Shown: in pieces, positions 36,576 through 53,960 of the stretch | Layout: each line of letters begins with the position of its first letter | Position numbering within the stretch: position 1 is the first letter of the stretch | Assembly (NCBI RefSeq): GCF_004136635.1 | Contig: NZ_NOIU01000002.1 | Span: 310,001 to 374,000, forward strand | Length of the DNA stretch: 64,000 nt | Origin: Rothia halotolerans | Lineage (GTDB): Bacteria; Actinomycetota; Actinomycetes; Actinomycetales; Micrococcaceae | Reading direction: 5' to 3' | Translations under genes and position numbers: made by a program | The notes under the pieces: model-generated | Databases searched by the model: none | Seen by the model: the letters and a program-made list of their open reading frames with translations, nothing else | Told to the model about the DNA's origin: nothing

Positions 36576-38429
36576 GTGCGGGACGTCGACGATCTCCGCC
36601 TCCCGCCGGGACGGGCCGCGGATATGCGGCTTCTGCCCGCGGCGGGGGTCGTGTGGGGCGCCGCGGCCGCGGTCGCCGCGGGACAGCCAGCACCGCCGAG
36701 GATCTGGGCGCTCGCCGTGCTCGCCCTCGCGGTGCTGACCCAGATCGGCGCGACGCTGTGGGGACGCCTGGGCCTCCGCCCGTCGGGCCGGCGCGTGCTC
36801 CAGGGGGCGACGGCGTCGTGCGTCCTCGCGCTGGTCGCGCTCGCGGCCTTCATCGCCTGGGCCGGCGACGCCGGAGGCGGGGCGGCCGCTCGGTTGGCCG
36901 GTGCCGCCGGCTCCGAGCGGATGTTCCGGGCCGTCGTCGAGCCGGAGGGCGAGCCCCGGTTGGTCGAGGGCAGGTACGGCACTTCCCAGGTGATCGACGG
37001 CAGGGTGCTCGAGGCCGACGGCGCAGCACACGGCGAGGGACAGCCCGAGCGGATCACCCTGTGGCGGCAGGTCCCCTCGGAGGACGACGCCGAGCCAGCC
37101 TGCCCGCCGTCCCGTCCCGGCGAGACCGAGGCCCCGGACCGGACAGCATCTCCCCATAAGGCCGAGGACGACGCCGGAGCCGGCCGGGAGCGCCCGCGAC
37201 CCGGTTCCTGCATGCTCTCGGTCATCGGGCAGGTGGAGCGGGACGGGGGCGGCTACACCATGCGCGTCGGGGCGCTCACGCCGGTCGCTGCGCCGTTGAA
37301 GGGCTCCGGTGGGGAGCAAGGCCTTCTCCCGGATCCGCTGCTCCGCGGCATCGACCGCCTCCGGGAGGGGTTCCGGCAGCGCGTCGAGGCCCAGCTACCG
37401 CAGGACCCCGCCGCGCTGGTCCTCGGCATGACCTACGGCGACGACTCGGGGCTGCGCCCGGAGACCCAGGACGCGCTCAAGACCTCGGGACTGACGCATC
37501 TGACGGCTGTCAGCGGCGCTAACGTGGCGCTGGTGTTCCTGCTCGGGGTCCACTCGATCCGCTGGACCCGCTGCCCACGGCCGATGACGCTCGTCGTAGG
37601 GCTGGTCGCCGTCGGCGCGTACGTGGTGCTGGTGGGCCCCGAACCCTCCGTCCTGCGCGCGGCGGTGATGGGTGTGCTGGGCGGGGTGACGCTGGCGCTC
37701 GGCCGGGGAGGAGCGGCCACCTCGGCGCTATGGGTGTCGGTGATCGTCCTGTTGTGCGCCGACCGCCATCTGGTGGACGAGCCGGGCTTCATCCTCTCGG
37801 TCCTGGCGACGGCGGGCATCGTCCTGCAGGGCGCCGTCATGAGCCGGGCCCTGGTACGGTTCATGCCGCGCATGGTCGCGGATCCGCTGGCGGTCACCGC
37901 GGTCGCGAGTCTCTGGTGCGGCCCGTATCTGGTCTGGATGACCGGCTACTGGGCGCCGTTCACCCTGCTCGCGAACCTTCTGGTGGCACCGGTGGTGCCG
38001 GGCGTGACCCTCTGCGGGCTGATGGCGCTGTGCCTCCAGGGGATCGCTCCCTGGTCCAGTGTGCTGACGACGACGGCGGGCGTGGGGGTCCGATGGGTCG
38101 AAGCCGTCGGCGTCGGTGCGGCGTCGTTGCCCGGCTCCCGGGTGGAGGCGGGTGAGGGACCGCTCCCCGTCCTGCTCGCGGTCGTCCTCGCTGTGGCCGT
38201 CGCGCTGCTCGTCTTCCGCGCGGACCCGCTGCGCGATGCCGGGAGGAAGGCGATGCCGGAGAACCTCGGACTGAGTCTGAGCCTGAGGCGCGACGCTGGG
38301 GAGGCCTTGTCAAAGGGGAGAGGCGGGGCCCTGGGCTGTGACGATGCCGCGGGCGTGTTCCTCTCCGGTGAGGCGAGCGGGCAGAGGCGGGATCATCCTT
38401 CTCGGGCAGGGCCCGGCCGGAGACGATAA
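36576..38429 (+). CDS. comEC: ComEC/Rec2 DNA channel without C-terminal nuclease domain
   Basis: A 617-residue polytopic protein. N-terminal membrane helices (about 20-95), an OB-like extracellular domain (about 115-245) and the competence domain with signature LTHLTAVSGANVALVF (305-320) and repeated helices to about 545 are present. The metallo-beta-lactamase-like domain of full ComEC proteins, with its HxHxDH-type motif, is absent. After the last helix there is only a 70-residue basic tail of low plausibility. It forms an operon with comEA and adjoins the accessory block, so 3' truncation is possible; some actinobacterial ComECs naturally lack this domain. Confidence 0.85.
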   Translation: MRDVDDLRLPPGRAADMRLLPAAGVVWGAAAAVAAGQPAPPRIWALAVLALAVLTQIGATLWGRLGLRPSGRRVLQGATASCVLALVALAAFIAWAGDAGGGAAARLAGAAGSERMFRAVVEPEGEPRLVEGRYGTSQVIDGRVLEADGAAHGEGQPERITLWRQVPSEDDAEPACPPSRPGETEAPDRTASPHKAEDDAGAGRERPRPGSCMLSVIGQVERDGGGYTMRVGALTPVAAPLKGSGGEQGLLPDPLLRGIDRLREGFRQRVEAQLPQDPAALVLGMTYGDDSGLRPETQDALKTSGLTHLTAVSGANVALVFLLGVHSIRWTRCPRPMTLVVGLVAVGAYVVLVGPEPSVLRAAVMGVLGGVTLALGRGGAATSALWVSVIVLLCADRHLVDEPGFILSVLATAGIVLQGAVMSRALVRFMPRMVADPLAVTAVASLWCGPYLVWMTGYWAPFTLLANLLVAPVVPGVTLCGLMALCLQGIAPWSSVLTTTAGVGVRWVEAVGVGAASLPGSRVEAGEGPLPVLLAVVLAVAVALLVFRADPLRDAGRKAMPENLGLSLSLRRDAGEALSKGRGGALGCDDAAGVFLSGEASGQRRDHPSRAGPGRRR

Positions 38430-38523
38430 ACGTGGGAGGCCAGGCGATGATCACGTGATTTGTCGTCTGCATCGCTCTTTCGCGGACCTATTCGAGGCCC
38501 TCCGGGGCGAACAGGCACATGGA

Positions 38524-39181
38524 TCAGTTGCGGTTCATGCCGTGCCTGCGCGTGTCGAGGGCGAACTTGAAGTGGCTCTCGGCCACGTCGATCTGGCTCC
38601 TCGGCGTGGAGGGGTCGAAGACCCGGAGCAGCGAGAAGCGGAACGTGCCCGGATCGGCGGTGCGCAGCTCGACGTTGCCGCCGTGGCCGTTGGCGGCGTA
38701 GGCCTCCCACCGCTGGCGGATGCTCTCCGCGCCGTCGGCCTTGCCGACGTACTGACGACCGTCCCGGGTGTCGGTGATCCGGTAGATCCCCGCCACCGAG
38801 GCCAGCGCCGTGCGCCACGAGGCGTAGGCGGGCTCGCGCATCACGGCCTGGAGGCGCGGGTAGTCCAGGACGAGCCGGTCGTAACCGGGGGAACGGCACC
38901 GGCTCCGCATCGGCGATCTCCAGCACGGGGTACCCGGCGGCGGTGTCCGCGTTGATGCGCCAGGTGCGCGGGGATCTTCATCCGATCACCAGCCTGTTCC
39001 TGAGATCGGCCAGCTGCTCGGACTCGACGAGGTCGAAGGTGCGCAGCACCCCGTCCTCGGAGATCTCACCGCGGTTCTCCAGCACCGACCAGAGCCGGGC
39101 CCGCTGACCGCCCTCCCAGTTTCCCACCCTGGATGACGCGCCATCGCGATCCGGGCGACGCACGACTCGCGAGCGTTGCAC
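38524..39181 (-). pseudogene. Broken GIY-YIG nuclease gene
   Basis: Remains of a GIY-YIG family protein. The C-terminal 90 residues contain GIYRITDTRDGRQYVGKADG and AESHFKFALDTRRHGMNRN. Two lesions are visible: a TGA at 38980-38978 where the continuing frame reads GxRSPRTWRINADT, probably a former TGG codon, and one extra base in a run of five G (38887-38891) that shifts frame between EPVPFP and GYDRLVLDYP. The 5' part is missing, cut near 39181 where the copper locus promoter begins. It is not expected to be functional. Confidence 0.75.
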
Positions 39182-39203
39182 GAGTACCCCGCCAGCGTAT
39201 AGC
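39176..39203 (+). promoter_or_regulatory. Promoter of the copper cluster
   Basis: TTGCAC (39176-39181), a 16-base spacer and TATAGC (39198-39203). The predicted start is near 39210, just upstream of the CsoR-type dyad. Confidence 0.55.
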
Positions 39204-39217
39204 CTTCAGAGTGTCAG

Positions 39218-39234
39218 ATACCCCTCCGGGGTAT
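39218..39234. promoter_or_regulatory. CsoR-type copper operator
   Basis: ATACCCC-TCC-GGGGTAT is a perfect 7-bp inverted repeat with a G/C-tract centre, the form bound by CsoR-family Cu(I) sensors. It lies at about +8 to +24 of the predicted transcript and just before the copZ ribosome binding site GAGGAAGGAAG. A regulator bound here would be released by Cu(I). No csoR gene is in the window. Confidence 0.75.
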
Positions 39235-39254
39235 ACCTAGAGGAAGGAAGCACC

Positions 39255-39464
39255 ATGACGCAGAACCAGTACCAGGTGTCCGGCATGACCTGCGGGCACT
39301 GCGAGATGTCGGTCCGCGAAGAGGTCGGCGAGCTCCCCGGCGTCACGGGCATCGAGGTCAGCGCCCAGACCGGCACGCTCGTGGTGACCGGCGAGGGGGA
39401 GATCGACGACGCGAAGGTCCTGGCCGCGGTCGAGGAGGCCGGGTACACGGCCGAGCGGGTCTGA
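39255..39464 (+). CDS. copZ: Copper chaperone (CopZ-like HMA protein)
   Basis: A 69-residue heavy-metal-associated domain protein with the Cu(I)-binding motif GMTCGHC (10-16) and the beta-alpha-beta-beta-alpha-beta pattern. It carries Cu(I) in the cytosol to the CopA ATPase encoded downstream. GAGGAAGGAAG precedes the ATG. The stop overlaps the next start (ATGA). It is controlled by the upstream CsoR-type dyad. Confidence 0.93.
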   Translation: MTQNQYQVSGMTCGHCEMSVREEVGELPGVTGIEVSAQTGTLVVTGEGEIDDAKVLAAVEEAGYTAERV

Positions 39465-40111
39465 TGAGGGCCGGGACCAGGCTCTCGCTCTACGGGGTCG
39501 GGCTGGTGGCGGCGTTCGGGGCTGCATTCGGCCTCGGCGGCGTCGCCGTCCCGGACAGCGTCGTGGAGTCGTGGACCCAGCAGAGCGGAGCGGACGAGCA
39601 CGGTGAGCACGGCGAAGGAGCGGAGCAGATGAGCACGCACGACGAAGACCAGCACGAGGCCGGCGGCATGGCCGGCCACGAGCACGCAGCGGACGGCGGC
39701 GCACCGCCGGAGGGCATCGTGGCCGCCGCGGACCCCGCCTACCCGCTGGGTGAGACGGTGCGCCTGAGCGCCGACCACATGCCGGGCATGGACGGTGCGG
39801 AGGCCACGGTCTCCGGGGCGTTCGCCACGACGGCGTACTCGGTCAGCTATACGCCGACCACCGGAGGGGACCCCGTGCGCGACCACAAGTGGGTCGTCCA
39901 CGAAGAGCTGCGGGATCCCGGCGAGGCACCCCTGCCCGACGGGGCCGAGGCGGTGCTCGAGGCCGATCACATGGACGGCATGGAGGGAGCCGAGGCGACG
40001 ATCGACAGCTCCACCCAGGAGACCGTCTACATGGTCGACGTCGAGACGGACGACATGACGATGACCAACCACAAGTGGGTCGTCGAGAGCGAGATCCACC
40101 CCGCCGGCTGA
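39464..40111 (+). CDS. Exported Met/His-rich protein with two DUF1541 repeats
   Basis: A 215-residue protein with an N-terminal membrane segment or signal (about 8-29), a His/Glu/Met-rich region (about 44-82, with several HE and HD pairs) and two tandem DUF1541 (YdhK-type) repeats: [20 protein letters not shown] to HKWVVHEEL, and [17 protein letters not shown] to HKWVVESEI. Each repeat has Met/His clusters suited to copper binding. It probably buffers or delivers copper outside the membrane; family function is not settled. It lies between copZ and copA in one operon. Confidence 0.82.
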
Positions 40112-40181
40112 CCCGGCCGGAACGGACCGGCGGCCGCATCGGCGGCCGCCGCAGATGAGCAGGAACAGGAAGGGGCGCGCA

Positions 40182-42449
40182 GTGAGCACCCAAGCACCGC
40201 CGGTCGCCGAGGCCGGCATCGAGCTCGAGATCGGCGGGATGACCTGCGCCTCGTGCGCCAACCGGATCGAGAAGAAGCTGAACAAGCTCGACGGCGTGCA
40301 GGCGACGGTCAACTACGCCACCGAGAAGGCCAAGGTCACCGCCCCCGAGGCGTACGACCCGCAGCTGCTGATCGCCGAGGTCGAGAAGGCCGGCTACGCC
40401 GCCGCCCTGCCCCAGCCCCGGCGCACCGAGGCCGAGGAGACGAGCGCGGGCGGGCCCGAGGACGCCGATCCGGAGCTGACCTCGCTGCGGCAGCGGCTGA
40501 TCGGCTCGATCGTGCTCACGGTTCCCGTGATCGCGATGGCGATGATCCCGGCCCTGCAATTCACCTACTGGCAGTGGCTCTCGCTGACCCTGGCCGCGCC
40601 GGTGATCGTGTGGGCGGCGTGGCCCTTCCACAAGGCGGCGTGGACCAACCTCAGGCACGGCACCGCGACCATGGACACGCTCATCTCCATGGGCACCACC
40701 GCGGCGTTCCTGTGGTCGCTCTACGCCCTGTTCTTCGGCACCGCCGGGACGCCGGGGATGGTCCACCCCTTCGAGTTCACCCTGGCACCGTCGGACGGGG
40801 CCGCGAACATCTACCTCGAGGCCGCGGCCGGGGTCACGATGTTCATCCTCGCCGGCCGCTACTTCGAGAAGCGCTCCAAGCGCCAGGCCGGAGCCGCGCT
40901 GCGCGCCCTGCTGGAACTCGGCGCGAAGGAGGTCTCGGTGCTGCGCGACGGCGTCGAGGTGAAGATCCCGACCGCGGACCTGCAGGTCGACGACGAGTTC
41001 GTCGTCCGCCCGGGGGAGAAGATCGCCACCGACGGCGTCGTCGTCTCCGGCACCTCCGCCGTGGACGCCTCGATGCTCACCGGCGAGTCCGTGCCGGTGG
41101 AGATCTCCGAGGGCGACGCCGTGACCGGCGCGACCGTCAACGCCGGCGGCCGCCTCCTCGTGCGGGCCACCCGGGTCGGGTCGGACACGCAGCTGGCGCA
41201 GATGGCCCAGCTGGTCGAGGACGCCCAGACCGGCAAGGCCGAGGTCCAGCGCCTGGCCGACAGGATCTCCGGGGTCTTCGTCCCGATCGTGATCGTCATC
41301 GCCGTCGCCACCCTCGGCGCGTGGCTCGGCGCGGGCTTCCCGACCGTCGCCGCCTTCACCGCCGCCGTCGCGGTGCTGGTCATCGCATGCCCCTGCGCCC
41401 TCGGCCTCGCCACCCCGACCGCGCTGCTGGTGGGCACCGGGCGCGGCGCGCAGATGGGCGTGCTCATCAAGGGCCCCGAGGTCCTGGAGTCCACCCGCAA
41501 GGTCGACACAGTGGTGCTGGACAAGACCGGCACCGTCACCAGCGGGAAGATGACGCTCACCGACGTGATCGCCGAGCCGGGCGTGGATCGGGCGGAGCTG
41601 CTGCGCTTCGCCGGCGCGCTCGAGAACGCCTCCGAGCACCCGATCGCGCAGGCCATCGCGGCGGGCGCGGTCGAGGAGGGCGGCGCGCTGCCGACTCCCG
41701 AGGACTTCGCCAACGTCGAGGGCAAGGGCGTGCAGGGCGTCGTCGAGGGCACCTCCGTGGTGGTGGGCCGCGAGACGCTGCTGGCCGACTGGTCGCAGAG
41801 GCTCTCCCCGGAGGTCGCCGAGGCGAAGGGCGCGGCAGAGCGCGAGGGCAAGACCGTCGTCGCCGTCGGCTGGGACGGGCGGGCGCGCGGCGTCCTCGTG
41901 GTCGCCGACGCCATCAAGCCCACCAGCGCCCGGGCCATCGCCGAGCTCAAGCAGCTCGGCCTGACCCCGGTGCTGCTGACCGGCGACAACGAGGCCGTGG
42001 CCCGCGAGATCGCCGGCGAGGTCGGCATCGAGCAGGTGATCGCCGAGGTCCTGCCGAAGGACAAGGTTGACGTCGTCTCCGGCCTCCAGGCGGAGGGGAA
42101 GGTCGTGGCGATGGTCGGCGACGGCGTCAACGACGCCCCGGCCCTGGCCCAGGCCGACCTGGGCCTAGCGATGGGCACCGGCACCGACGTCGCGATCGAG
42201 GCCGCCGACATCACGCTGGTGCGTGGTGACCTGCGCGCCGCGGTCGCCGCGATCCGGCTCTCCCGCAGGACGCTGCGGACGATCAAGACCAACCTGTTCT
42301 GGGCCTTCGCCTACAACGTCGCGGCCATCCCGGTCGCAGCACTGGGCATGCTCAACCCGATGCTCGCCGGCGCGGCGATGGCGTTCTCCAGCGTCTTCGT
42401 CGTCGGTAACAGTCTCCGTCTGCGCGGCTTCACCAGCGTCACGAAGTAG
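40182..42449 (+). CDS. copA: Cu(I)-exporting P1B-type ATPase
   Basis: A 755-residue copper ATPase. One N-terminal HMA domain has GMTCASCAN; the transmembrane metal site CPC is in [12 protein letters not shown]; phosphorylation site DKTGT, SEHP nucleotide motif and hinge GDGVNDAPA are intact; the late YN and MAFSS motifs in the last helices mark the P1B-1 (Cu+) group. GTG at 40182 is preferred because AGGAAGG precedes it; an in-frame ATG at 40155 lacks a ribosome binding site. It exports Cu(I) handed over by CopZ. Confidence 0.95.
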
Positions 42450-42514
42450 CCCGCGAGGAAAGGATCCGTCCGCCGAGGCCGGCCGAGCCGAGCCGCGTCG
42501 AAGGTCGGGACATG

Positions 42515-42559
42515 CGCCGCCCAGGCAGCCGGGGGAGAGCCCCGATGGCCTGGGCGGCG
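42515..42559. terminator. Bidirectional hairpin between copA and the VOC gene
   Basis: CGCCGCCCAGGC (42515-42526) and GCCTGGGCGGCG (42548-42559) form a perfect 12-bp stem. An inner CGGGG/CCCCG stem (42530-42534 with 42540-42544) nests inside. It lies between convergent genes and probably terminates both transcripts. Confidence 0.65.
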
Positions 42560-42574
42560 TGCTGCTCGCGCCCG

Positions 42575-42946
42575 CTAGGCCTTGTCGTGGACGGTCACGG
42601 CGTACCCGTCCGGATCGAGGAAGGTGAACGCCAGGCCGAACGGCCCGGCCTCCGGCGCACGCAGGATCGTGGTCCCCGCCGCGGCGAGGGAGTCGTGCAG
42701 CTCCTGCGAGTCGTCGCAGTGCAGCCACAGCGCGACGCCGGTGCCGGGGCGGGGAGTCGCCTGGTCCAGGTCCACACCGGGCAGCGGCTCTCGCACGGCG
42801 AAGGGGATGGGGGAGGTCGCGAAGAGGACCGCGCCGGGAGGTGCTGCCTGGACCCGGCGCAGGCCGAGGCGGGTCTCGTAGAACTCCGCGGCGCGCTCGA
42901 GGTCGCGCACCTGCAGGGCGATGAAGTCCGGACCGGTGACTGCCAT
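42575..42946 (-). CDS. VOC (glyoxalase/dioxygenase-fold) family protein
   Basis: A 123-residue vicinal-oxygen-chelate protein made of two beta-alpha-beta-beta-beta modules (IALQVRDLERAAEFYETRLGL and GTGVALWLHCDDSQELHDSL to FLDPDGYAVTV). Such proteins act as glyoxalase-like enzymes, dioxygenases or drug-binding resistance proteins; the substrate cannot be read from sequence. GGAAGGAAAC precedes the ATG. It is divergent from the MarR gene, with two operator dyads between them. Confidence 0.85.
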   Translation of the reverse strand: MAVTGPDFIALQVRDLERAAEFYETRLGLRRVQAAPPGAVLFATSPIPFAVREPLPGVDLDQATPRPGTGVALWLHCDDSQELHDSLAAAGTTILRAPEAGPFGLAFTFLDPDGYAVTVHDKA

Positions 42947-42965
42947 GGGGTTTCCTTCCGAAGTG

Positions 42966-42983
42966 ATGTCAGCATGTTGACAT
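42966..42983. promoter_or_regulatory. MarR operator 1
   Basis: ATGTCA-N6-TGACAT, a perfect dyad. It contains TTGACA (42977-42982), a consensus -35 for marR, and the minus strand carries the -10-like CATGCT of the VOC gene. Its centre is 27 bp from that of operator 2. Confidence 0.7.
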
Positions 42984-42992
42984 AAAGAGGAT

Positions 42993-43010
42993 ATGTCAGA
43001 ATATTGACAT
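42993..43010. promoter_or_regulatory. MarR operator 2, covering the marR start codon
   Basis: A second identical ATGTCA-N6-TGACAT dyad whose last two bases are the first two of the marR ATG. On the minus strand it supplies CTGACA, a -35 placed 17 bases before the CATGCT in operator 1. Binding would shut off both directions. Confidence 0.7.
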
Positions 43011-43461
43011 GAAGCAACCCGCAGACGAGCTGGAAGCGATGATCGGCTACCGGCTGAAGCAGGCCCAGGCGGCGCTGCGCTCGCGCATGGACGAGACGCT
43101 GAAGCAGCTCGAGCTGACCACCTCGCAGTACTCCTGCCTCGAGACGATCGGGCGGCGCCCCGGGGCCTCGAACGCGGAGATCGCCCGGAGCGTGTTCGTC
43201 TCCCGGCAGGCGATGAACACGCTCCTGCGCGGGCTGCAGCAGCGCGGCCTCGTGACGAGGGCGGAGAGGGCGGAGGCGGGCAGGGCGCTCCCGATCAGGC
43301 TCACGGGCGAGGGGAGGCGGCTCCTGGGGGAGGCGGCGGCCCGGATCGCCAGGATCGAGAAGGCGATGTCCGACGCGCTCGGCCCGGAGCGGCGGACATC
43401 GCTGATGAGCGGTCTCACCCGATGCGTGGACGCGCTGGAGGACCTGCCCGACCCCGAATAG
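43009..43461 (+). CDS. MarR family transcriptional regulator
   Basis: A 150-residue winged-helix dimer. The recognition region is SNAEIARSVFVSRQAMNTLLRGLQQRGLV, followed by the wing (RAEAGRALPIRLT). It probably represses itself and the divergent VOC gene by binding the two identical dyads between them; the inducer is unknown. Its ATG lies inside the second dyad and no ribosome binding site is visible, so a leaderless or near-leaderless message is likely. Confidence 0.9.
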   Translation: MKQPADELEAMIGYRLKQAQAALRSRMDETLKQLELTTSQYSCLETIGRRPGASNAEIARSVFVSRQAMNTLLRGLQQRGLVTRAERAEAGRALPIRLTGEGRRLLGEAAARIARIEKAMSDALGPERRTSLMSGLTRCVDALEDLPDPE

Positions 43462-43559
43462 ATCTGTGCGGGTCTCGGCCCGCTGCGTGAGGGCGCTGAG
43501 ACCTCCCGGCCGGGCGAAGGTACCCCGCGGCCGCCCGCGGCCCGCGGCGTCCAGGCGCC

Positions 43560-45242
43560 CTACGCCCCGGCCAGATCCCGCCGGCGGAAGCCCCCGACGC
43601 CGACGCCGGCCAGCAGGAGGGCGATCCCGGCGAGGACTCCGACGGCGGCCCAGGAGACGTCCTCGGCCGGGTACTGGCCGATGTGCCGGAACACGGAGGT
43701 GCCGAGCACCGCGTCGTCGAGCTCCATCATGTCCCCGAACAGGCTCAGCACGGCCCCGTACGCGAACACGGCCCAGGTGAGGCCGATGAGCCGCGGCGCG
43801 ATCCCGTAGAGCGCGAGGGCCAGTCCCAGCAGCGACCAGACGGCCGGGGCATGCGCCACGTGCCCGAGCAGCGTCGGACCGAGGAGCCCCCAGTCCCCGG
43901 TCGAGAGCGCGGCGCCGAGCCCCTCGCCGAGGCCGGCCGCGGCCAGCAGGCAGAGCGACCCGAGCGCGGAGACCGCCGCCCACGAGAGGATCCAGCCGCT
44001 GCGGGAGACCGCCGCGGCGAGCACGGACTCGGCCCGCGCGCTCTGCTCCTCGCCCCGCAGCCCCTGCGCCGAGAGGATCGCGCAGACCGCGGCGATGATG
44101 GCGAAGTAGACGCCCATGAACCCGAGGTAGCCGTCGACCATGCCCCCGGAGCCGCCGAAGACGGCGAGGATCTCCGCCGGCATCCCCTCCGCGTTCTCGG
44201 CCATCGGCTGCAAGAACGCCCCGAAGACGACGCCGCCCGCCAGCAGCGCGAACGACCACCAGGCCAACCCGGCCCGCTGCAGCCGGAAGGCGAGCGAGAA
44301 CGAGCCCCGCAGCCACCGGGGCGCGGCGGCGGAACCGAGCCGATCCGGCAGGATGCCCGCGGCCAGGTCGCGTCGCGACTGCAGCGCGAAGCCGGCGAGG
44401 AGCAGCAGCGCCGTCGCCGCGAGGGAGATCGCCAGCGGCCACCACCGGTCGAGGACGAGCGGAGCGGTCTGCTGCGACCAGCCGAACGGCGAGAGCCAGG
44501 ACAGCCAGTCCAGCTCCCCTCCCTGCACGGCGGACATGTCGCCGAGGCCGCGGACGGCGAAGCTCGCCGCGAGCACCGCCCCGGCGCCGCCGGAGGCCGC
44601 CCGCGAGTAGGGCGAGAGCTGCACGGTCACCGCGGCGATCCCGGCGAAGACGAGACCGGCGGCACCGACGCTGCAGCCGAACAGCAGCGAGGAGCCCAGC
44701 GACCCCGGCTCGGTCGGGGAGGCGTAGAACACCGCGGTCATGAGCCCCGCCGTCAGCAGGTTCATCAGCGTCACCAGGAGCAGGACCGCGGCCAGCGGCG
44801 CATGCCGACCCACGACGCTCGCGCGCACCAGCTCCGCCCGGCCGCTCTGCTCCTCCACGCGGGTGTGCCGGGAGACCGTCATGATGCTCATCAGCGCCGC
44901 GCCGATCATCAGGTACGCCCCGTACATCCCCACCAGGAACCGGGCCGCGGTGATGTCGTCGAAGCCGTAGGCCGGGCCGCCGACCAGCGCCATGACGGGG
45001 TTCGTGGCGAACACGGCGAAGCTCGCCAGCGACTCCTCGTCCAGCACGAGGCCGAGCGCGCTCGCGAAGTAGGCGAGCATCGCCGTCATCCCGAGCACCC
45101 AGGCGGGGAGCCAGATCCGGTCCCGGCGCAGCATGAACCGCAGCAGGCTCCCCGTTCCCGTCAGCGAGCCGCCCGACGAGGCGGTGCCGCGGTGCGCCGG
45201 GCCGGCCCGTCCCGACGGCGCGGCCGCCGGCGCCCCGCTCAT
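43560..45242 (-). CDS. ABC exporter permease (two-module, tetronasin-type)
   Basis: A 560-residue integral membrane protein with about 12 predicted helices in two similar halves, each beginning with a basic stretch before the first helix ([17 protein letters not shown] and [18 protein letters not shown]). This is the architecture of actinobacterial antibiotic exporters of the TnrB3 type. A disordered Gly/Ala/Ser N-terminus precedes helix 1. Its start overlaps the stop of the ATPase gene by four bases. The exported compound is unknown. Confidence 0.88.
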
Positions 45243-46165
45243 GACGCGCTCCTATGCAGCTCGTCCCCGTAGTGGCGCAGCAGCAGCTGCTCGAGCGTCG
45301 GCGGCGACGCCGTGAGGGCCTGCACGCCGTGGGAGGAGAGCTCCCGCATGATCTCGGGCAGGTGCTGGGCGTCGGCGTCGAAGCGGATCTGCCCGCCCTC
45401 CTCGCGCAGATCGTGCACGCCCGGCCGGTCCGTCAGCCCGGAGACCGGACGAGCCGTCCGGGCGGTCACCGCCGTGCGGGAGAGGTGCCGCAGATCGCTC
45501 AGCGTCCCGGACTCGACCACCTTCCCGTGCCGGACGATGGAGATCCGGTCGGCGAGCGCCTCGACCTCGGCGAGGATGTGGCTGGACAGCAGCACCGTGC
45601 AGCCCTCGTCCCTCGCCCGCCGGATGCACTCCTGGAAGACCGCCTCCATGAGCGGGTCGAGCCCGGCCGTGGGCTCGTCGAGCAGGAGGACCTCGGCGTT
45701 CGAGGCCAGCGCGGAGATGAGGGCGACCTTCTGCCGGTTGCCCTTGGAGTAGGCGCGTCCCTTCTTGCGCGGGTCGAGGTCGAAGCGCTCGACGAGCTCC
45801 TCGCGCCTGCGTCTGTCGACGCCGCCGCGCAGCCGCGCGAACAGATCGATCGCCTCGCCGCCGGTCAGGCTCGGCCAGAGTTCGACGTCGCCGGGCACGT
45901 AGGCGAGCCTGCGGTGCAGCGAGACCGCATCCGACCACGGGTCACCGCCGAGCAGACGCACGGTGCCCGAGTCGTGGCGCAGGATCCCGAGGAGGATCCG
46001 GAGGGCGGTCGACTTCCCCGCGCCGTTCGGGCCGAGGAAGCCGTGGACCTCGCCCGGGGCGACGCGGAGGTCCAACCCGTCGAGCGCACGGGCGGGGCCG
46101 TAGCTCTTGACGAGGTTCGAGATGCTGATGACGGGAGTCTCGCCGTCGCGTGGGGCGGAGGTCAT
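45239..46165 (-). CDS. ABC exporter ATP-binding protein
   Basis: A 308-residue nucleotide-binding subunit of the DrrA-like drug-exporter type. Walker A is GPNGAGKST, the signature is the variant YSKGNRQKV, Walker B is [13 protein letters not shown] and the switch histidine is in LLSSHIL. A C-terminal extension of about 80 residues is typical for DrrA-like proteins. It pairs with the overlapping permease gene and is preceded by an overlapping tetR, so the operon is tetR-ATPase-permease. Confidence 0.93.
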
Positions 46166-46866
46166 CGCTGATCGCCTTCGTTCGTCGTGGAGGCTTCGCC
46201 CTCCGGTCCGGCCGGAGGCGCGTCGTGCCGGCCCCCCGGAGCGGCGGAGGGCGTCGAAAGGTCCTGGCGGTCGGGTTCGGAGGTGATGAACCCGTGCCGG
46301 TACAGGTCGAGGAGGCAGGGGGCGAGTCGGGCCAGCGAGCCGGCCAGATCCTCGGTGCCGAGCGCGTGCCTGACCCTGGGCTCGAGCAGCATCGGCGAGA
46401 GTGCCAGCACCGCGATCGCGGTCGACTGCGCGCGCCGGTCCTCGGCCTGGCGGAAGGCGTAGCCGGCGAAGCCCTCGCCGATGATCTGCTCGAGGACCGC
46501 GACGTAGTGGTCGAAGAATCGCTGCCCCTGTCCGGAGGGGTCGAGCATCGACTTCAGGAAGTACTCCACGTAGGTGCGCATCGGCCCCTCGGTGAGCAGC
46601 TCGGCGAGCAGGGACGGCGGCGCCTGGGGGTTCTCCCGCTTGATGTCGGTCAGCGTCTCGAAGACGTGGTCGTCGCAGGCCGCGCGCAGCTTGGCCTTGG
46701 AGCCGAAGTGGTGGATCACCAGGCCGGGCGAGACGCTCGCTGCCGCCGCGATGCCGCGCACCGTCGTCGAGGAGAATCCCCGCGCGGCGAACTCGGTGAT
46801 CGCGGTGTCCCGGATGCGCTCCGCGGTCTCGGGAGCGGTGTGCGGAGCACGAGAGGTTGAACTCAT
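46162..46866 (-). CDS. TetR family regulator of the ABC exporter
   Basis: A 234-residue regulator with an N-terminal helix-turn-helix ([41 protein letters not shown], in two parts) and a C-terminal ligand domain. The last 30 residues are disordered and charged. ATG at 46866 is chosen because the -10 (TTCAAT) ends seven bases before it; the message appears leaderless. A 14-bp palindrome covers that -10, so autoregulation of the whole operon is likely. The inducer is probably the exported drug (inference). Confidence 0.9.
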
Positions 46867-46880
46867 GTTCAATATTGAAC
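46867..46880. promoter_or_regulatory. TetR operator palindrome
   Basis: GTTCAATATTGAAC is a perfect 14-bp palindrome. It covers the minus-strand -10 TTCAAT and directly abuts the ATG of tetR. With TTGACG at 46902-46897 as -35 and a 17-base spacer, repressor and polymerase sites coincide. Confidence 0.75.
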
Positions 46881-46902
46881 GCGCGTTTTATCTCGTCGTC
46901 AA
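46874..46902 (-). promoter_or_regulatory. Leaderless promoter of tetR-ABC operon
   Basis: Minus strand: TTGACG (46902-46897), 17 bases, TTCAAT (46879-46874). Transcription is predicted to start at 46866, the A of the start codon. Confidence 0.6.
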
Positions 46903-46994
46903 CGCCTGCCGTCTTCCTTCGTCGTGAGGCGGCGAGCGGCCGATCCGCCGCCGGCAGGACCGTGGTGCTGGCGCGCAGGATCCTCTCGCCTCCC

Positions 46995-47000
46995 TAGACT
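46995..47000 (+). promoter_or_regulatory. -10 element of the 47008 gene, leaderless
   Basis: TAGACT ends seven bases before ATG 47008. No ribosome binding site is present between them. No clear -35. Confidence 0.45.
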
Positions 47001-47007
47001 GGGCGGC

Positions 47008-47253
47008 ATGGGCATCAAAGAACTGATCTTCGGAGACCGGCGGGACCCTCGCCATGTGCTGGAGGAGCTGTTCGGCGGCACCGCGGAGGAGGACTCGGCT
47101 CCCGAGAGCGCCAAGACCTGGGCGCGTGAGCGGCTTGCCGCCGCCGGCGTGAACCCTGCGGCGGAGACCGTGAGAGCGGTCCGGCTGCTGCGCGTGGAGG
47201 AGCCGAGGCTGTCGCTGCTGCCGGCGGCCTACCTGGTGAAGCAGATCGCCTGA
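47008..47253 (+). CDS. Small hypothetical protein
   Basis: An 81-residue soluble, probably helical protein (MGIKELIFGDRRDPRHVLEEL to the C-terminal LSLLPAAYLVKQIA) with an acidic middle. No recognised domain, no signal peptide and no membrane segment. The start is fixed by a leaderless-type -10 element; an upstream in-frame start at 46924 would produce a low-complexity Arg/Pro-rich N-terminus and is less likely. It precedes a small membrane-protein gene by 20 bases, so the pair may be co-transcribed. Function unknown. Confidence 0.6.
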   Translation: MGIKELIFGDRRDPRHVLEELFGGTAEEDSAPESAKTWARERLAAAGVNPAAETVRAVRLLRVEEPRLSLLPAAYLVKQIA

Positions 47254-47273
47254 AACGTCGAGGGAGGCGTCCC

Positions 47274-47519
47274 ATGACCTGGAAGAAGCCCGTCTACATC
47301 GCTGCGGGGATCTGCATCGGCGTCGGACTGATCCTGATGCTCTTCGTCTTCGGATCGGTGGTCTACGCGGCTCGTTTCGACCCGGGCTCAGGAGCGAACA
47401 TCGGAGCCGGCCTCGCGTTCATGGCCTCGATCGCCGCGCTGCTGGCCGGCGGCGTCACCACCTGGGTGGGCATCGCGACGGACCGCCGCGAGAAGCGATC
47501 CCGCCGGGGTCCGCGCTGA
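47274..47519 (+). CDS. Small two-helix membrane protein
   Basis: An 81-residue protein with two membrane helices (about 7-29 and 44-67), a short loop between them and a basic C-terminal tail (RREKRSRRGPR) that should lie in the cytoplasm. No conserved domain is recognised. GAGGGAGG precedes the ATG by about six bases. It is probably co-transcribed with the small gene upstream and ends about 220 bases before holA. Confidence 0.65.
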   Translation: MTWKKPVYIAAGICIGVGLILMLFVFGSVVYAARFDPGSGANIGAGLAFMASIAALLAGGVTTWVGIATDRREKRSRRGPR

Positions 47520-47607
47520 GTCGCCGAAGAGGCACGACGACGCTGAGTCCGGCAGCGGCCTCAGGGGCTGTCAGACCGCGTAGGGGGCTGAGAGGCGTGA
47601 GCGTGCG

Positions 47608-47650
47608 TAGGATCAGGATCTTCGTCTGCAGGCGCCCCGCGCCCTAGGAT
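47608..47650 (+). promoter_or_regulatory. Two candidate -10 elements upstream of holA
   Basis: TAGGAT occurs at 47608-47613 and again at 47645-47650 in the 218-base gap before holA. Neither has a good -35. The second would give a leader of about 80 bases. Confidence 0.3.
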
Positions 47651-47737
47651 GAAGGGAACACCGAGAGAACCCCGCGGCGAAACCGCACGGCCGGAAGACC
47701 CCGACCCGCGCCCCGCCCGAGACCTAAGGACCGCCCA

Positions 47738-48748
47738 GTGCCCCCACGCCGATCCACACGATCCCAGCAGAGCGGCCCGACGTGGCGCGACGTCGAGCCG
47801 GCGCCGGTCGTGCTGCTGCTGGGCTCCGAGGAGTACTTCGCCCACCAGGCGCGCCGCCGCCTCATCGGCCTGGCCCGCGAGGCCGGCGGGGGAGCCGAGG
47901 TCCACGACCTCTCAGCGCGCGACTACTCGGCCGGCGCGCTCCCGATGGCGACCAGTCCCTCCCTCTTCGGCGACTCCCGCGTGGTCACGGTCGGGGAGCT
48001 GGAGAAGATGAGCGAGGAGTTCCTCGAGGACGCGATGGCCTACCTCGCCTCGCCCGATCCCGACTCCACCGTCATCCTCACTCACGGCGGCGGCAACCGG
48101 GGCAAGAAGCTCATCGACGCGATCGGCCGGGCCAAGCACCCCGTCGTCGAGTGCAAGCCGCTGAAGAGCGACCGGGACAAGTCCGACTTCGTCTACGCCG
48201 AGGTCCGCGCAGCCGGCCGCCGCATCGAGCCCGACGCCGCCCGCCTGCTGATCGCCGCCGCGGGCCGGGACGTGGGCGAGCTGGCGTCGGCCTGCCGGCA
48301 GCTGGCGCAGGACGGGCCGCCCACCATCACCGACGCCGTCGTGGAGAAGTACTACGGCGGTCGCGCCGAGGTCACCGCCTTCAAGGTGGCCGACGCCGCG
48401 GTCGCCGGAAACAGCGGCGTCGCGCTCCGGGCCCTGCGCCAGGCGCTGGACTCCGGGACGGATCCCGTGCCCCTGGTCGGCGCGCTGGCCATGCGGGTCC
48501 GGCACATCTGCCAGGTGCACGGCCGCCGCGAGTCGCCCGCCGGCCTCGCCCGCTCCCTGGGCATGGCGCCGTGGCAGGTGGAGCAGGCGCAGCGGGACTC
48601 CCGGCGCTTCACCTCCGAGGCGCTCAGCCAGGTCGTGCGCAGCCTCGCCGAGGCGGACGCCCACGTCAAGGGCGAGGCCCAGGACCCCGTGTACGCCCTG
48701 GAGCGCGCCGTGCTGACCCTGACCACGGCGGGCCAGCGCCGCGGGTGA
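47738..48748 (+). CDS. holA: DNA polymerase III delta subunit
   Basis: A 336-residue clamp-loader subunit that opens the sliding clamp. It has the family N-terminus (VLLLGSEEYFAHQARRRLI), the VVTVGELEKMSEE segment and the C-terminal domain (HICQVHGRRESPAGLARSLGMAPWQV). CTAAGGA precedes the GTG. In related genomes holA follows comEC directly; here about 9.3 kb separate them. The last 39 bp before the stop region are repeated exactly 545 bp downstream. Confidence 0.93.
   Translation: MPPRRSTRSQQSGPTWRDVEPAPVVLLLGSEEYFAHQARRRLIGLAREAGGGAEVHDLSARDYSAGALPMATSPSLFGDSRVVTVGELEKMSEEFLEDAMAYLASPDPDSTVILTHGGGNRGKKLIDAIGRAKHPVVECKPLKSDRDKSDFVYAEVRAAGRRIEPDAARLLIAAAGRDVGELASACRQLAQDGPPTITDAVVEKYYGGRAEVTAFKVADAAVAGNSGVALRALRQALDSGTDPVPLVGALAMRVRHICQVHGRRESPAGLARSLGMAPWQVEQAQRDSRRFTSEALSQVVRSLAEADAHVKGEAQDPVYALERAVLTLTTAGQRRG
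48704..48742 (+). repeat. 39-bp direct repeat, copy 1 (3' end of holA)
   Basis: This copy encodes the last residues of HolA (RAVLTLTTAGQRR) and is followed by GGG TGA. It is identical over 39 bp to 49249-49287. Confidence 0.9.
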
Positions 48749-49248
48749 GGGCTGTCCGTAGCACGGGGGCCGCGTCGTCCACAGGAGCCTTCCATCTCAG
48801 GATCCCGATCCCCCATGCCGGGCGATGATGTGATGATGTGGGAGCATGGGGCAACGTGTTCTTCGCAGGAGATCGGAAGCTGTCGGATCGGCATCGGTCT
48901 TCGGCGATACCGAGATGAGGGCCGCGCTCGGTGAAAGCCCCACGAGCATGAAGACGCCGGGGAGCTCGCCGCTCCCGGCATGTCGTGGCAGGACGCCAGG
49001 ACAGGGGGACCTCTGAATGCGGCACCAGGGACTGCGGATCGTCGCCACCGCGGCGTTCTCCGGCATCTTCACGGCCTGGCTCCTGGACCTCCTGCGCTTC
49101 GGCCTCGACCTGCGCGGCACCATGGTCGCGCTGTCGCTCCTGATCCTGACGGGCGGCGTCGCACTCTGGTCGCTTCTCTCCGACGGGACCCTTCGCCGCG
49201 ACGCGGAGGAGCCGGACGAGCCTTCGTGAAGCGGATCCCTGTCCCCAA
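48743..49248 (+). other. Segment bracketed by the holA-end repeats
   Basis: A 506-bp stretch between the two repeat copies. Its first half (48749-49016) has no credible gene, only short low-complexity features such as two copies of GATGATGT near 48824-48838. Its second half carries a small membrane-protein gene. No transposase, integrase or terminal inverted repeats were seen. Confidence 0.6.
49017..49229 (+). CDS. Small two-helix membrane protein inside the repeat-bracketed segment
   Basis: A 70-residue protein with two likely membrane helices (about 6-26 and 34-53) and an acidic C-terminus (RRDAEEPDEPS). AGGGGGA precedes the ATG by about eight bases. No domain is recognised. It is the only plausible gene between the two 39-bp repeats. 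Coding status rests on the hydrophobic pattern and start signals alone. Confidence 0.5.
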   Translation: MRHQGLRIVATAAFSGIFTAWLLDLLRFGLDLRGTMVALSLLILTGGVALWSLLSDGTLRRDAEEPDEPS

Positions 49249-49287
49249 CGCGCCGTGCTGACCCTGACCACGGCGGGCCAGCGCCGC
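49249..49287 (+). repeat. 39-bp direct repeat, copy 2
   Basis: Exact duplicate of the holA 3' end. Read in the holA frame it ends in CGC CGC TGA, and it is followed at once by the -10 TAGGGT (49294-49299) of the cupin gene. It may therefore represent the original holA end and its natural junction. Confidence 0.9.
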
Positions 49288-49331
49288 TGAGGCTAGGGTG
49301 GAGGCACAGAATCGCACGAGGAGGTGCAGGA

Positions 49332-49673
49332 ATGAGTAACCTGAACGAGGAGGCCCGCAACCATCTGCAGGCGGCTCGGGAGGACGAGCGGGGCCGCAGC
49401 GCGGGCCTGGTGGTCCACGACGGCGAGCTGCGCCAGACGGTCATCGCGCTCGCCGAGGGAGCCAGGCTCCCCGCCCACAACTCACCGCCGGCGGCGAGCC
49501 TCCAGGTGCTCACCGGCCGGGTGAGGGTCGAGCTCGGCGAGGAGGTCCAGGGGGAGTTCGCGGCCGGGGAGCTGTGGGTGCTCACGCACGAGCGGCACTC
49601 GGTCCTCGCCCTCGAGGACTCGGCGTTCCTCCTGACCACCGTCACCAGCGTCCCCAGGTCGTCCTACTCATGA
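49332..49673 (+). CDS. Cupin-domain protein
   Basis: A 113-residue single-domain beta-barrel protein. Residues about 40-105 (ALAEGARLPAHNSPPAASLQVLTGRVRVELGEE, in part, and FAAGELWVLTHERHSVLALEDSAFLLTTV) follow the two cupin motifs. Some metal-ligand positions are kept (His47 and the His in HERHSV), but the pattern is not strict. Possibly a small-molecule sensor or binding protein. GAGGAGGTG precedes the ATG. It overlaps the DUF488 gene by four bases. Confidence 0.75.
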   Translation: MSNLNEEARNHLQAAREDERGRSAGLVVHDGELRQTVIALAEGARLPAHNSPPAASLQVLTGRVRVELGEEVQGEFAAGELWVLTHERHSVLALEDSAFLLTTVTSVPRSSYS

Positions 49674-50086
49674 GCGCGGCGTCGAAGGGATCCGAGCGGT
49701 CCTCTCAGGGAACGGGGAAGAAGCAGGCCGACGTCGTCGTGAAGAGGATCTACGAGAAGGCCGCGGACCGGGACGGCAGCCGGGTGCTCGTGGACCGGGT
49801 CTGGCCGCGGGGCATCAAGAAGGCCGATGCCGGGCTGACCGAGTGGCTGAAGGAGGTCGCGCCGACCTCCGAGCTGCGCAAGTGGTACTCCCACGACCCG
49901 GAGAAGTACGAGGAGTTCGCCCGCCGCTACCGGAAGGAGCTGGCGGAGGGACCGCAGCGCGAGGCGTTCGAGGAGCTCGTGGAGATGGCGCGCGAGAAGC
50001 GGCTGACGCTGCTGACGGCCACGAAGTCCCCGGAGATCAGCCAGGCCGAGGTCCTGCGGGGCCTGATCGCGGACCAGGCCTTCTGA
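49670..50086 (+). CDS. DUF488 family protein
   Basis: A 138-residue member of DUF488. The family signature is RVLVDRVWPRGIKKADAGLTEWLKEVAPTSELRKWY (in parts), followed by EFARRYRKEL and LLTATKSPEISQAEVL. Function is unknown. A lysine-rich disordered N-terminus of about 25 residues precedes the domain. It is coupled to the cupin gene, and a long perfect hairpin separates it from convergent rpsT. Confidence 0.85.
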   Translation: MSAASKGSERSSQGTGKKQADVVVKRIYEKAADRDGSRVLVDRVWPRGIKKADAGLTEWLKEVAPTSELRKWYSHDPEKYEEFARRYRKELAEGPQREAFEELVEMAREKRLTLLTATKSPEISQAEVLRGLIADQAF

Positions 50087-50165
50087 ACCGGCTCGGACGG
50101 GGGAGGGAAAGCCTCCTGTGAGCCCGCCCGGACGCACCGTCGAGGCCCCGCTCCGCCCGGACGCA

Positions 50166-50200
50166 CGAAGGCCCCCGCCGGAATCCGGCGGGGGCCTTCG
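50166..50200. terminator. Bidirectional hairpin between DUF488 gene and rpsT
   Basis: A perfect 16-bp stem (50166-50181 with 50185-50200) closed by an AAT loop. It lies between converging genes and should terminate both. No T run follows on either side. Confidence 0.75.
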
Positions 50201-50219
50201 ACTCACTTACTACCGAAGA

Positions 50220-50483
50220 CTAGGAGAGCCCGTTGACGCGAGCGGCCAGGCCCGACTTCTTGTTGGCAGCGTTGTTCTTGTGCAGAACACCCTTGCTGAC
50301 AGCCTTGTCGAACTTCTTGCCGGCCAGGCGCAGAGCCGAGACGGCCTGCTCCTTGTCGCCCGCTTCCACGGCGGCGTTGACCTTGCGCACCGAGGTGCGC
50401 AGATCCGACTTGTAGGCGTTGTTACGCAGACGAGCCTTCTCGTTGGTCAGGATCCGCTTCTTCTGGGACTTGATGTTAGCCAC
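50220..50483 (-). CDS. rpsT: 30S ribosomal protein S20
   Basis: An 87-residue, lysine-rich, all-helical S20 that binds 16S rRNA early in assembly. The family start is [20 protein letters not shown], and [18 protein letters not shown] ends the protein. AGAAGG precedes the GTG by about seven bases. It is monocistronic and divergent from lepA, the usual actinobacterial order holA-rpsT-lepA. Confidence 0.96.
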
Positions 50484-50813
50484 GTGAAAACCTTCTGTTG
50501 TTCGTCGTATAGGTCAGTGAGGGCAAACGAGCCGGTCTTGACTGAGCGGCGTGGGGATGCCTGTGACAACCGGCTCGCAGTGCCCGATGACCATCGGACA
50601 CACAGCTAATGAGTCTATCAGCAAGGCCGGGTCCCGGCCATAGGGCGTCCCGGGTCGCGTACGCCACACCTCCGCGCGGCTCCCCGGCGGCGTCGTGCCC
50701 CGCGCCCGCGCACCCGGGCCCGGAGCGACTTAGCGCCGGATGGGAAAACATGGGAAACTAGGAGATCGACCGGCACGCTCACGTGCACCAGTCCATAGAA
50801 AGGGCAGCTACTC
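50484..50813. other. rpsT-lepA divergent intergenic region
   Basis: A 330-bp gap without a plausible gene. On the minus strand it holds TAGACT (50617-50612), a candidate rpsT -10, giving a leader of about 120 bases. That leader contains a 9-bp inverted repeat CGAGCCGGT (50528-50536) / ACCGGCTCG (50569-50577) around a 32-base loop, possibly a site for S20 autoregulation. On the plus strand no clear lepA promoter was found; AGAAAGGG before 50814 is its ribosome binding site. Confidence 0.5.
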
Positions 50814-52670
50814 GTGGCACCTCAGGCGAGCGAAGCTCCGCGCCCCGCGGCGACCGATCCCAGCATCCTGCGGAACTTCTGCATCATCGCCCACATCGAC
50901 CACGGCAAGTCCACCCTGGCGGACCGGATGCTGCAGGCGACCGGCGTGCTGACCCCCCGGGAGATGAAGAACCAGTACCTGGACCGGATGGACATCGAGC
51001 GCGAGCGCGGCATCACCATCAAGTCCCAGGCCGTGCGCATGCCGTGGGAGGTCGAGGGGACCGCCTACGCGCTGAACATGATCGACACGCCCGGCCACGT
51101 GGACTTCACCTACGAGGTATCCCGCTCCCTGGCCGCCTGCGAGGGCGCGCTCCTGCTGGTCGACGCCGCCCAGGGGATCGAGGCGCAGACGCTGGCCAAC
51201 CTCTACCTGGCGATGGAGAACGACCTCACCATCATCCCGGTCCTGAACAAGATCGACCTCCCCGCGGCGCAGCCCGAGAAGTACGCGGAGGAGCTCGCCA
51301 ACCTCATCGGCGTGGATCCCGAGGACGTCCTGCGCGTCTCCGGCAAGACCGGCGAGGGGGTGGAGGAGCTGCTGGACCGGATCGTCCGCGACCTCCCCGA
51401 GCCCCAGGGCATGGCCGACGCCGAGCCGCGCGCCATGATCTTCGACTCCGTGTACGACTCCTACCGCGGGGTGGTGACCTACGTCCGCGTCGTCGACGGC
51501 ATGCTCAGGCCGCGGCAGAAGATCGCCATGATGTCCACCGGCGCCGAGCACGAGCTGCTGGAGATCGGCGTGATCTCGCCCGAGCCCAAGCCCACCGAGG
51601 GGCTCGGCGTCGGCGAGGTCGGCTACCTCATCACCGGCGTGAAGGACGTCCGGCAGTCGCGGGTGGGCGACACCGTCACCGACGCCAAGCGCCCCGCGCC
51701 GGAGAACCTGGGCGGCTACGAGGACCCCAAGCCCATGGTCTTCTCCGGCCTCTTCCCGATCGACGGCTCCGACTACCCGATCCTGCGCGACGCCCTGGAC
51801 AAGCTGAAGCTCAACGACGCCGCGCTGGTCTACGAGCCGGAGACCTCCGCCGCGCTGGGCTTCGGCTTCCGCGTCGGCTTCCTCGGCCTGCTGCACCTCG
51901 AGATCGTCCGGGAGCGCCTGGAGCGGGAGTTCAACCTGGAGCTCATCTCCACCGCGCCCAACGTCATCTACGACATCGTGGCCGAGGACGGCACCTCGAT
52001 GCGCGTGACCAACCCCAGCGAGTTCCCCGAGGGCAAGATCTCCACCATCGAGGAGCCGATGGTCGCCTGCACCGTGATCGTGCCCAGCGAGTTCATCGGC
52101 GCCGTGATGGACCTGTGCCAGTCCCGCCGCGGCCAGATGGGCGGCATGGACTACCTCTCCCAGGACCGCGTCGAGCTGCGCTACCGGATGCCGCTGGCGG
52201 AGATCGTCTTCGACTTCTTCGACCAGCTGAAGTCGCGCACCCGCGGCTACGCCTCGCTGGACTGGAAGCTCGACGGCGCCCAGGAGTCCGACCTGGTCAA
52301 GGTGGACATCCTGCTGCAGGGCGAGCGGGTGGACGCCTTCTCGGCCGTGACCCACCGGGACAACGCGTACTCGTACGGCACCACGATGGCCACCCGGCTG
52401 CGCGAGCTGATCCCGCGGCAGCAGTTCGAGGTGCCCATCCAGGCCGCCATCGGCTCCCGCATCATCGCGCGCGAGAACATCCGGGCGATCCGCAAGGACG
52501 TGCTCTCCAAGTGCTACGGCGGCGACATCTCCCGCAAGCGCAAGCTGCTGGAGAAGCAGAAGGAGGGCAAGAAGCGCATGAAGATGGTGGGCCGCGTGGA
52601 GGTCCCGCAGGAGGCGTTCATCGCGGCGCTCTCCTCGGGCGAGGAGTCGAAGGACAAGTCCAAGAAGTGA
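50814..52670 (+). CDS. lepA: Elongation factor 4 (LepA), ribosome back-translocase
   Basis: A 618-residue translational GTPase resembling EF-G but with the LepA-specific C-terminal domain. G1 is AHIDHGKS (26-33), G3 is DTPGH, G4 is NKID. The basic C-terminus ([24 protein letters not shown]) is diagnostic. It remobilises stalled ribosomes and aids 30S biogenesis. AGAAAGGG precedes the GTG. Its stop overlaps hemW by four bases. Confidence 0.97.
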
Positions 52671-53896
52671 GCCCCGCCCAGCCCACCGGGGATCCGGCAC
52701 CGGCGGACGGCCTGCTGCCCGCCGGCGCGGGGGCCGAGGCCGCCGCGCGCACCTTGAGCCTGTACGTCCACGTCCCGTACTGCACCGTGCGCTGCGGCTA
52801 CTGCGACTTCAACACCTACGCCGCGGAGGAGTTCTCCGACGGCGTCGGGCGGCTGACCTACGCCGACGACGCCGTGCGCGAGCTCCGCTTCGCCGCCGAG
52901 GTCATGGAGCGCTCGGGCGGGCTCGGCCGGCCCCTGCACACGGTCTTCTTCGGCGGGGGGACCCCGACCCGGCTCCCGGCCGAGGACCTCGCGCGGATCC
53001 TGCGCACCGGCGTCGAGCTCTTCGGCATCGAGGACGGCGCGGAGGTCACCACCGAGGCCAACCCCGACTCGGTGACCCGCGAGGACCTCGAGACCCTGCG
53101 CGACGCCGGGTTCACCCGCGTCTCCTTCGGGATGCAGTCCGCGGTGCCCCGCGTCCTGGAGGTCCTGGACCGCACCCACACCCCGGCGAACGTGCCGAAG
53201 GTCGTGGACTGGGCCAAGGAGCTCGGCCTGCAGACCTCCGTGGACCTGATCTGCGGCGCGCCGGGGGAGACCCTGGAGGAGTGGGAGACCTCGGTCCGCG
53301 CGGCGATCGGCTACGCGCCGGACCACATCTCCGCCTACTCGCTCATCGTGGAGCCGGGCACCAAGCTCGCGGCGCAGATCGCCCGCGGGGAGCACGTGCC
53401 GGTGGACGACGACACCCAGGCGGACATGTACCAGCTGGCCGACGAGCTCTTCGCCGGCGCGGGGTACCACTGGTACGAGATCTCCAACTGGTCCACCGGG
53501 CCCGCGACCCGATCGCGGCACAACCTGGCCTATTGGCGCAACCAGGACTGGTGGGGGATCGGCCCCGGCGCCCACTCGCACGTGGGCGGGGTGCGCTGGT
53601 GGAACCTCAAGCACCCCCTGCCCTACGCCAACCGGCTGCGCGAGGGCGTCTCGCCGGCGGCCGCGCGGGAGCACCTCGAGGCGGAAACCCGCTACACGGA
53701 GGAGATCATGCTGGGCGCCCGGATCGCCGACGGCCTCCCGGTGGAGCGGCTGCGTCCCGCGGGCCGCGAGGCGACCGGCTGGCTGCTGGGCCAGGGCCTC
53801 ATCGAGGCGGGGGAGCTGGAGCGCGGCCTGGTCCGCCTGACCCTGCGCGGCAGGCTCCTGGGCGACGCAGTGGTCAGGGAGTTGCTGGCGGACTGA
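52667..53896 (+). CDS. hemW: HemW-type radical SAM protein (heme chaperone)
   Basis: A 409-residue radical SAM enzyme-like protein. The [4Fe-4S] cysteines are C39, C43 and C46 in [12 protein letters not shown]; the GGGTPTRL motif and the C-terminal HemW region ([17 protein letters not shown]) follow. HemW proteins bind heme and deliver it to respiratory enzymes; they do not have the HemN oxidase signature. About 30 residues at the N-terminus are an Ala/Pro-rich extension. Its GTG overlaps the lepA stop. Confidence 0.94.
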
Positions 53897-53960
53897 GCCG
53901 GGGCCCGCGGGCTCCGCGCGGCCACGGCGGGGTGGGGTCGAGGGCCCCATGCCGGGCGGC

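Follow-up and report, generated by a model that had tools for sequence, protein, structure and literature searches.

The junction between holA and rpsT in Rothia halotolerans carries about 1.4 kb of extra DNA, in which an exact copy of the last 39 coding bases of holA that precede its GGG-TGA end is found 506 bp downstream of the first. The best explanation, to which we assign a probability of roughly 55%, is that this region is a small variable segment specific to this lineage, produced by illegitimate recombination in which the holA tail was copied. The features of the locus are as follows, with positions given in the window, which is the whole 64-kb stretch of DNA that was analysed.

47738-48748, plus strand: holA, DNA polymerase III delta subunit, 336 aa (Pfam DNA_pol3_delta_C)
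48704-48742, plus strand: copy 1 of the 39-bp repeat, final coding bases of holA ahead of GGG-TGA
48743-49248: 506-bp segment between the copies, GC content 67.6% versus 72.3% for the window
48753-50155: whole extra block, which replaces 89 bp of Rothia santali
49017-49229, plus strand: orphan small membrane-protein ORF, 70 aa, without a match in Pfam, NCBIfam or PHROG
49249-49287, plus strand: copy 2 of the 39-bp repeat, with TGA directly after it
49332-49673, plus strand: cupin-like protein, 113 aa (cupin Pfam matches below the cut-off)
49670-50086, plus strand: DUF488 protein, 138 aa (PF22752, 1.3e-38)
50166-50200: 17-bp perfect stem ahead of rpsT, kept in R. santali
50220-50483, minus strand: rpsT (ribosomal protein S20), which normally lies next to holA

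The two copies are identical at 39 of 39 positions, lie in direct orientation, and are spaced 545 bp start to start, and they continue into different sequences on both sides. From the base composition, approximately 1e-12 such exact pairs within 5 kb are expected by chance per 64-kb window, confirming that the repeat is real. Exact non-tandem repeats of at least 22 bp within 5 kb are rare in this genome; in 464 kb (the window plus 20 stretches of 20 kb), only one other was found (47 bp, 384-bp spacing), and this presumably represents a repeated protein domain. When a 3-bp indel is allowed, TGAGG follows both copies, but extending the repeat to take in the stop codon was not supported (P 0.57). 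No third copy of the core is present in the genome (3.04 Mb, 10 contigs), nor does the core significantly match the region from about 49900 to 50250, between the DUF488 gene and rpsT. The other match to the core (L002, 77%) lies in a region that we take to be xseA and was therefore rejected as a chance match.

The first-pass annotation had described this exact repeat correctly, together with holA, the small ORF, the cupin ORF and the stop codon that directly follows copy 2. It had also named a cupin promoter by eye alone, and a consensus scan of 48600-50250 for sigma-70-type promoters or terminators yielded nothing. The 506-bp segment contains one ORF whose composition resembles that of coding sequence (third-position GC 0.92), and the start of the DUF488 gene overlaps the cupin stop codon (ATGA). 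A search for RNA elements in 47000-50700 gave, up to E 5, a sub-threshold match to sodF_sRNA on the rpsT terminator as the sole Rfam match, and an RNA element was rejected.

As the first-pass annotation had proposed, the junction was aligned with those of relatives. The nearest relative compared was R. santali strain AR01 (Micrococcaceae; G024), in which the holA protein is 90% identical and lies on an 8,854-bp contig. This contig is collinear with the window over 47717-48752 and again over 50156-53907, with 89 bp between the two blocks versus 1,403 bp in the window, and the rpsT terminator comes after holA. The right edge of the extra DNA thus lies just left of the 17-bp stem. The first-pass annotation had regarded only the 506 bp between the copies as inserted. 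The idea of an insertion was borne out, because the segment has no match in the 34 other genomes of the genus (E 0.001) and is missing from the R. santali junction, but its extent needs revision: the extra DNA measures about 1.4 kb instead of 506 bp and comprises the orphan small ORF, copy 2 and the cupin-DUF488 pair.

A holA match was present in 59 of 59 genomes. We examined 84 holA loci of relatives, from 32 of the 34 other genomes of the genus (all except G016 and G023) and 52 other genomes of the family; 21 of these loci were read only about 1.4-1.5 kb downstream, and one (L136) about 2 kb. None contains the small ORF, the cupin gene or the DUF488 gene (tblastn, E 1e-4). An exact repeat of the holA tail of at least 22 bp was likewise found downstream in 0 of the 84, with the 21 shorter loci read to about 1.4-1.5 kb only. 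The junction itself is conserved: rpsT was found in 83 of the 84 loci, the exception (L123) ending 297 bp past holA and before rpsT, and its near end is at most 600 bp from the holA end in 73 of the 83. In six of the remaining genomes, all of the genus, rpsT is on the opposite strand and 0.8-0.94 kb away; in the other four, the distance is 0.7 kb (G167), 0.8 kb (G062), 2.5 kb (G152) and 5.6 kb (G179), and other ORFs occupy the space in G152, G062 and G167. The extra DNA is therefore accessory DNA of one lineage, absent from relatives at a conserved junction.

Two further observations concern this spacer. In seven genomes of the same genus (L109-L114 and L116), rpsT lies on the opposite strand 0.4-1.2 kb downstream of holA, and short ORFs seem to sit between the two genes in some of them. 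In addition, a 14-bp repeat is located at 50124-50166, ahead of the rpsT terminator, and R. santali contains three similar units there, suggesting that the spacer before the terminator expands and contracts.

The genes of the extra block have different distributions. At E 0.01, the small ORF protein is matched in 6 of the 245 genomes of the family, one of them being its own. The best ORFs of similar size, of 64 aa (G183, E 4.2e-4) and 72 aa (G282, E 5.6e-3), come from two genomes of a different genus in the family, and 14 columns are invariant among the three sequences. A profile search of 396 genomes of the order found a match in 22, again including its own, and the remaining 21 are weak (E 2.5e-4 or worse) and mostly inside long frames. 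No phage, plasmid or viral-contig relative of the small ORF was found. Two weak relatives were noted at 1492-1686 in L034 and 1441-1659 in L038; the latter overlaps the gene for a Tat-signal-like protein (weak NCBIfam match), and the former seems to have a gene for a similar protein next to it. The ORF may thus be part of a two-gene unit there.

Of the 34 other genomes of the genus, 2 have a weak match to the cupin protein; across the family, 146 of 245 genomes match the cupin protein and 153 of 245 match DUF488. The two occur together in none of the 33 cupin-bearing and 24 DUF488-bearing loci examined. The cupin-DUF488 stretch has partial matches in 73 plasmid records at 60-80% identity, making a plasmid origin of both genes possible, and these matches look like homologous genes rather than genes of mobile elements. 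The 506-bp segment gave no DNA-level match to phages or plasmids, and no known mobile element was found in it.

The age of the duplication can be estimated from the core. Whereas the two copies are identical, the corresponding holA end in R. santali matches at only 29 of 39 positions, and the best match among the 29 genus loci searched is 32 of 39 (G008, ungapped). Copy 2 was thus made from the holA of its own lineage, after the split from R. santali, and is recent. The first-pass annotation had described copy 2 as if it were the original holA end, a reading that found no support. Since the cupin-DUF488 pair that follows it is itself extra, copy 2 does not adjoin ancestral downstream DNA. The flanks also favour copy 1, whose flank is similar to that of R. 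santali with P=0.02 versus P=0.67 for copy 2. This similarity rests partly on the stop codon (past the stop alone, P=0.24), and holA in G008 ends in CGCCGC-TGA, the same ending as copy 2. For these reasons, we are only leaning towards copy 1 as the original.

Short copies of the holA tail are also found directly after the holA stop codon in three other genomes of the family: 21 bp with the stop included (L153), 14 bp (L157) and 13 bp (L122). They make a copying error at the holA-rpsT spacer plausible. Tail matches of 13-14 bp also occur kilobases away from holA, not beside the stop codon (14 bp at 5.5 kb in L159; 13 bp in L119 and L131), and the two shorter copies, in L157 and L122, could therefore partly be due to chance.

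On the favoured reading, about 1.4 kb of accessory DNA entered this lineage in the interval from holA to the rpsT terminator and, in the same process or in a second step, the final 39 bp of the lineage's own holA were copied again by illegitimate recombination, for which template-switch, slippage or a homology-facilitated event is the inferred route. In its available part, the study of Touzain et al. 2010 (PMC2884548) describes most such diversity in Escherichia coli as fitting no known mobile or repeated element and the variable segments as likely made by illegitimate recombination. Together with the re-copying of the tail in three family genomes, this description favours illegitimate recombination. 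Several points weigh against it: an exact 39-bp repeat around 506 bp is longer than the flanking repeats usual in the part of PMC2884548 available to us, the tail copies in the other genomes are adjacent and short rather than spaced, and the cupin-DUF488 part may have come from mobile DNA.

The first-pass annotation had suggested that the repeat is the attL/attR left when a minimal or decayed element integrated site-specifically, with a tandem duplication event as the alternative. Such an element, a remnant or one mobilised in trans, would have used the 3' end of holA as its target, and its integrase would have been lost or be encoded elsewhere. The geometry agrees with this proposal: a direct repeat of the target stands at both ends of the segment, holA is left open, and integration into a gene end also leaves a repeat that keeps frame and stop codon. 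Within the core, two inverted 7-bp arms (CGCCGTG/CACGGCG) separated by 11 bp resemble a weak recombinase core, with P 0.085 by shuffling and 0.048 against 39-mers of the window, and the genome has three matches to the tyrosine-recombinase family and three to the resolvase family. However, none of these six is nearby, the closest on the same contig being about 304 kb away, and no integrase or recombinase match (Pfam or PHROG) was detected in the six scanned ORFs that overlap the 506-bp segment. The DNA right after the distal repeat is the cupin-DUF488 pair instead of ancestral DNA, a feature that would still be compatible with attL/attR if the pair had been gained separately beforehand. Use of the same target, judged by a downstream tail repeat of at least 22 bp, was observed in 0 of the 84 other loci (21 read about 1.4-1.5 kb only), the genome contains no third core, a 28-base part of the core is absent from viral contigs, and against phages the core gave one partial 87% match at E 0.6. 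Moreover, the sister species R. santali departs from this target at 10 of the 39 positions, so an incoming element would need a core matched to the present species. The window is without any tRNA that could have served as a target, and a limited literature search found no paper on integration at holA. Of the hallmarks of site-specific integration that were tested, only the repeat itself is present, leaving little beyond geometry; we consider such an integration unlikely, and the duplication fits better. The absence of an inverted pair at the segment ends, among 25 of the 27 pairs listed, also speaks against an integrated element and led us to reject a transposon or MITE. A length of 39 bp is too long for the usual transposon target duplication.

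A sequence of two or three steps, in which slippage duplicated the holA tail in tandem and the 506-bp segment was then inserted between the copies, with cupin-DUF488 added downstream, would agree with the tail duplications beside the stop codon in L153, L157 and L122 and with the short units repeated ahead of the terminator in the window and R. santali. It requires several independent events, including an insertion exactly between two copies that damaged neither, and is also improbable. The order core-segment-core could have resulted from a single homologous crossover with a small circle bearing the holA tail and the 506-bp segment, but the plasmid searches turned up no relative of either the segment or its ORF, and the carriage of a holA tail by such a circle would be unexplained, which makes this a distinctly remote explanation. 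It is very doubtful that the 506-bp unit is a cassette without an integrase, moving into and out of the holA end by way of the 39-bp repeats; if it were, cells would switch between a holA-cupin arrangement and one with the small membrane protein. Exact 39-bp repeats would in any case allow deletion of the segment by recombination or slippage, with a holA one codon shorter and running into the cupin gene as the expected product. Finally, the genome is a draft of 10 contigs, but the locus is inside a contig of 1,054,027 bp and the copies run into different sequences on both sides, so an assembly error is hardly credible.

The DNA on the other side of holA also differs. For the 9.4 kb from comEC to holA (38279-47716), blastn found no counterpart in the contig of R. 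santali, which has a presumably MgtC-like gene at this position. This region encodes a P-type ATPase with a heavy-metal domain and DUF1541, glyoxalase-like, MarR, ABC-transporter and TetR proteins, with a weak GIY-YIG match below the cut-off, and its edges share no exact repeat of at least 11 bp. Gene content thus differs from that of R. santali on both sides of holA.

The locus shows that an integrated element should not be called from a clean direct repeat of the 3' end of a gene alone: here, both the age of the repeat and the state of the junction in relatives speak for another origin. In several genomes, the holA-rpsT spacer has duplicated holA tails or, occasionally, gained genes, and it could be studied as a natural archive of illegitimate recombination within the Micrococcaceae.

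Some integrative elements restore the 3' end of the gene into which they insert, their targets being tRNA and protein-coding genes. Like them, the present locus has a segment bracketed by direct copies of the 3' end of a gene, but no integrase was found, the target is not conserved in the sister species, and the distal copy is not beside the ancestral downstream sequence. As in the tail duplications of L153, L157 and L122, the holA end recurs between holA and rpsT; those copies are 13-21 bp long and beside the stop codon, whereas the present one is 39 bp long and 506 bp apart. As far as the available part of PMC2884548 describes them, microdiversity loci are likewise short accessory DNA between conserved genes, with direct repeats and without mobile-element genes. 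Direct repeats flank 10-18% of the variable segments in that account, most being under 30 bp; the present repeat is longer than most, copies a gene 3' end, and has one copy at the edge of the block and the other inside it. Homology-facilitated illegitimate recombination, as presented in the accessible portion of PMC3240628, similarly joins foreign DNA to the chromosome without an integrase, with the difference that no donor sequence is known for the present locus. Set beside these systems, the phenomenon is real, young and local, and ordinary in kind.
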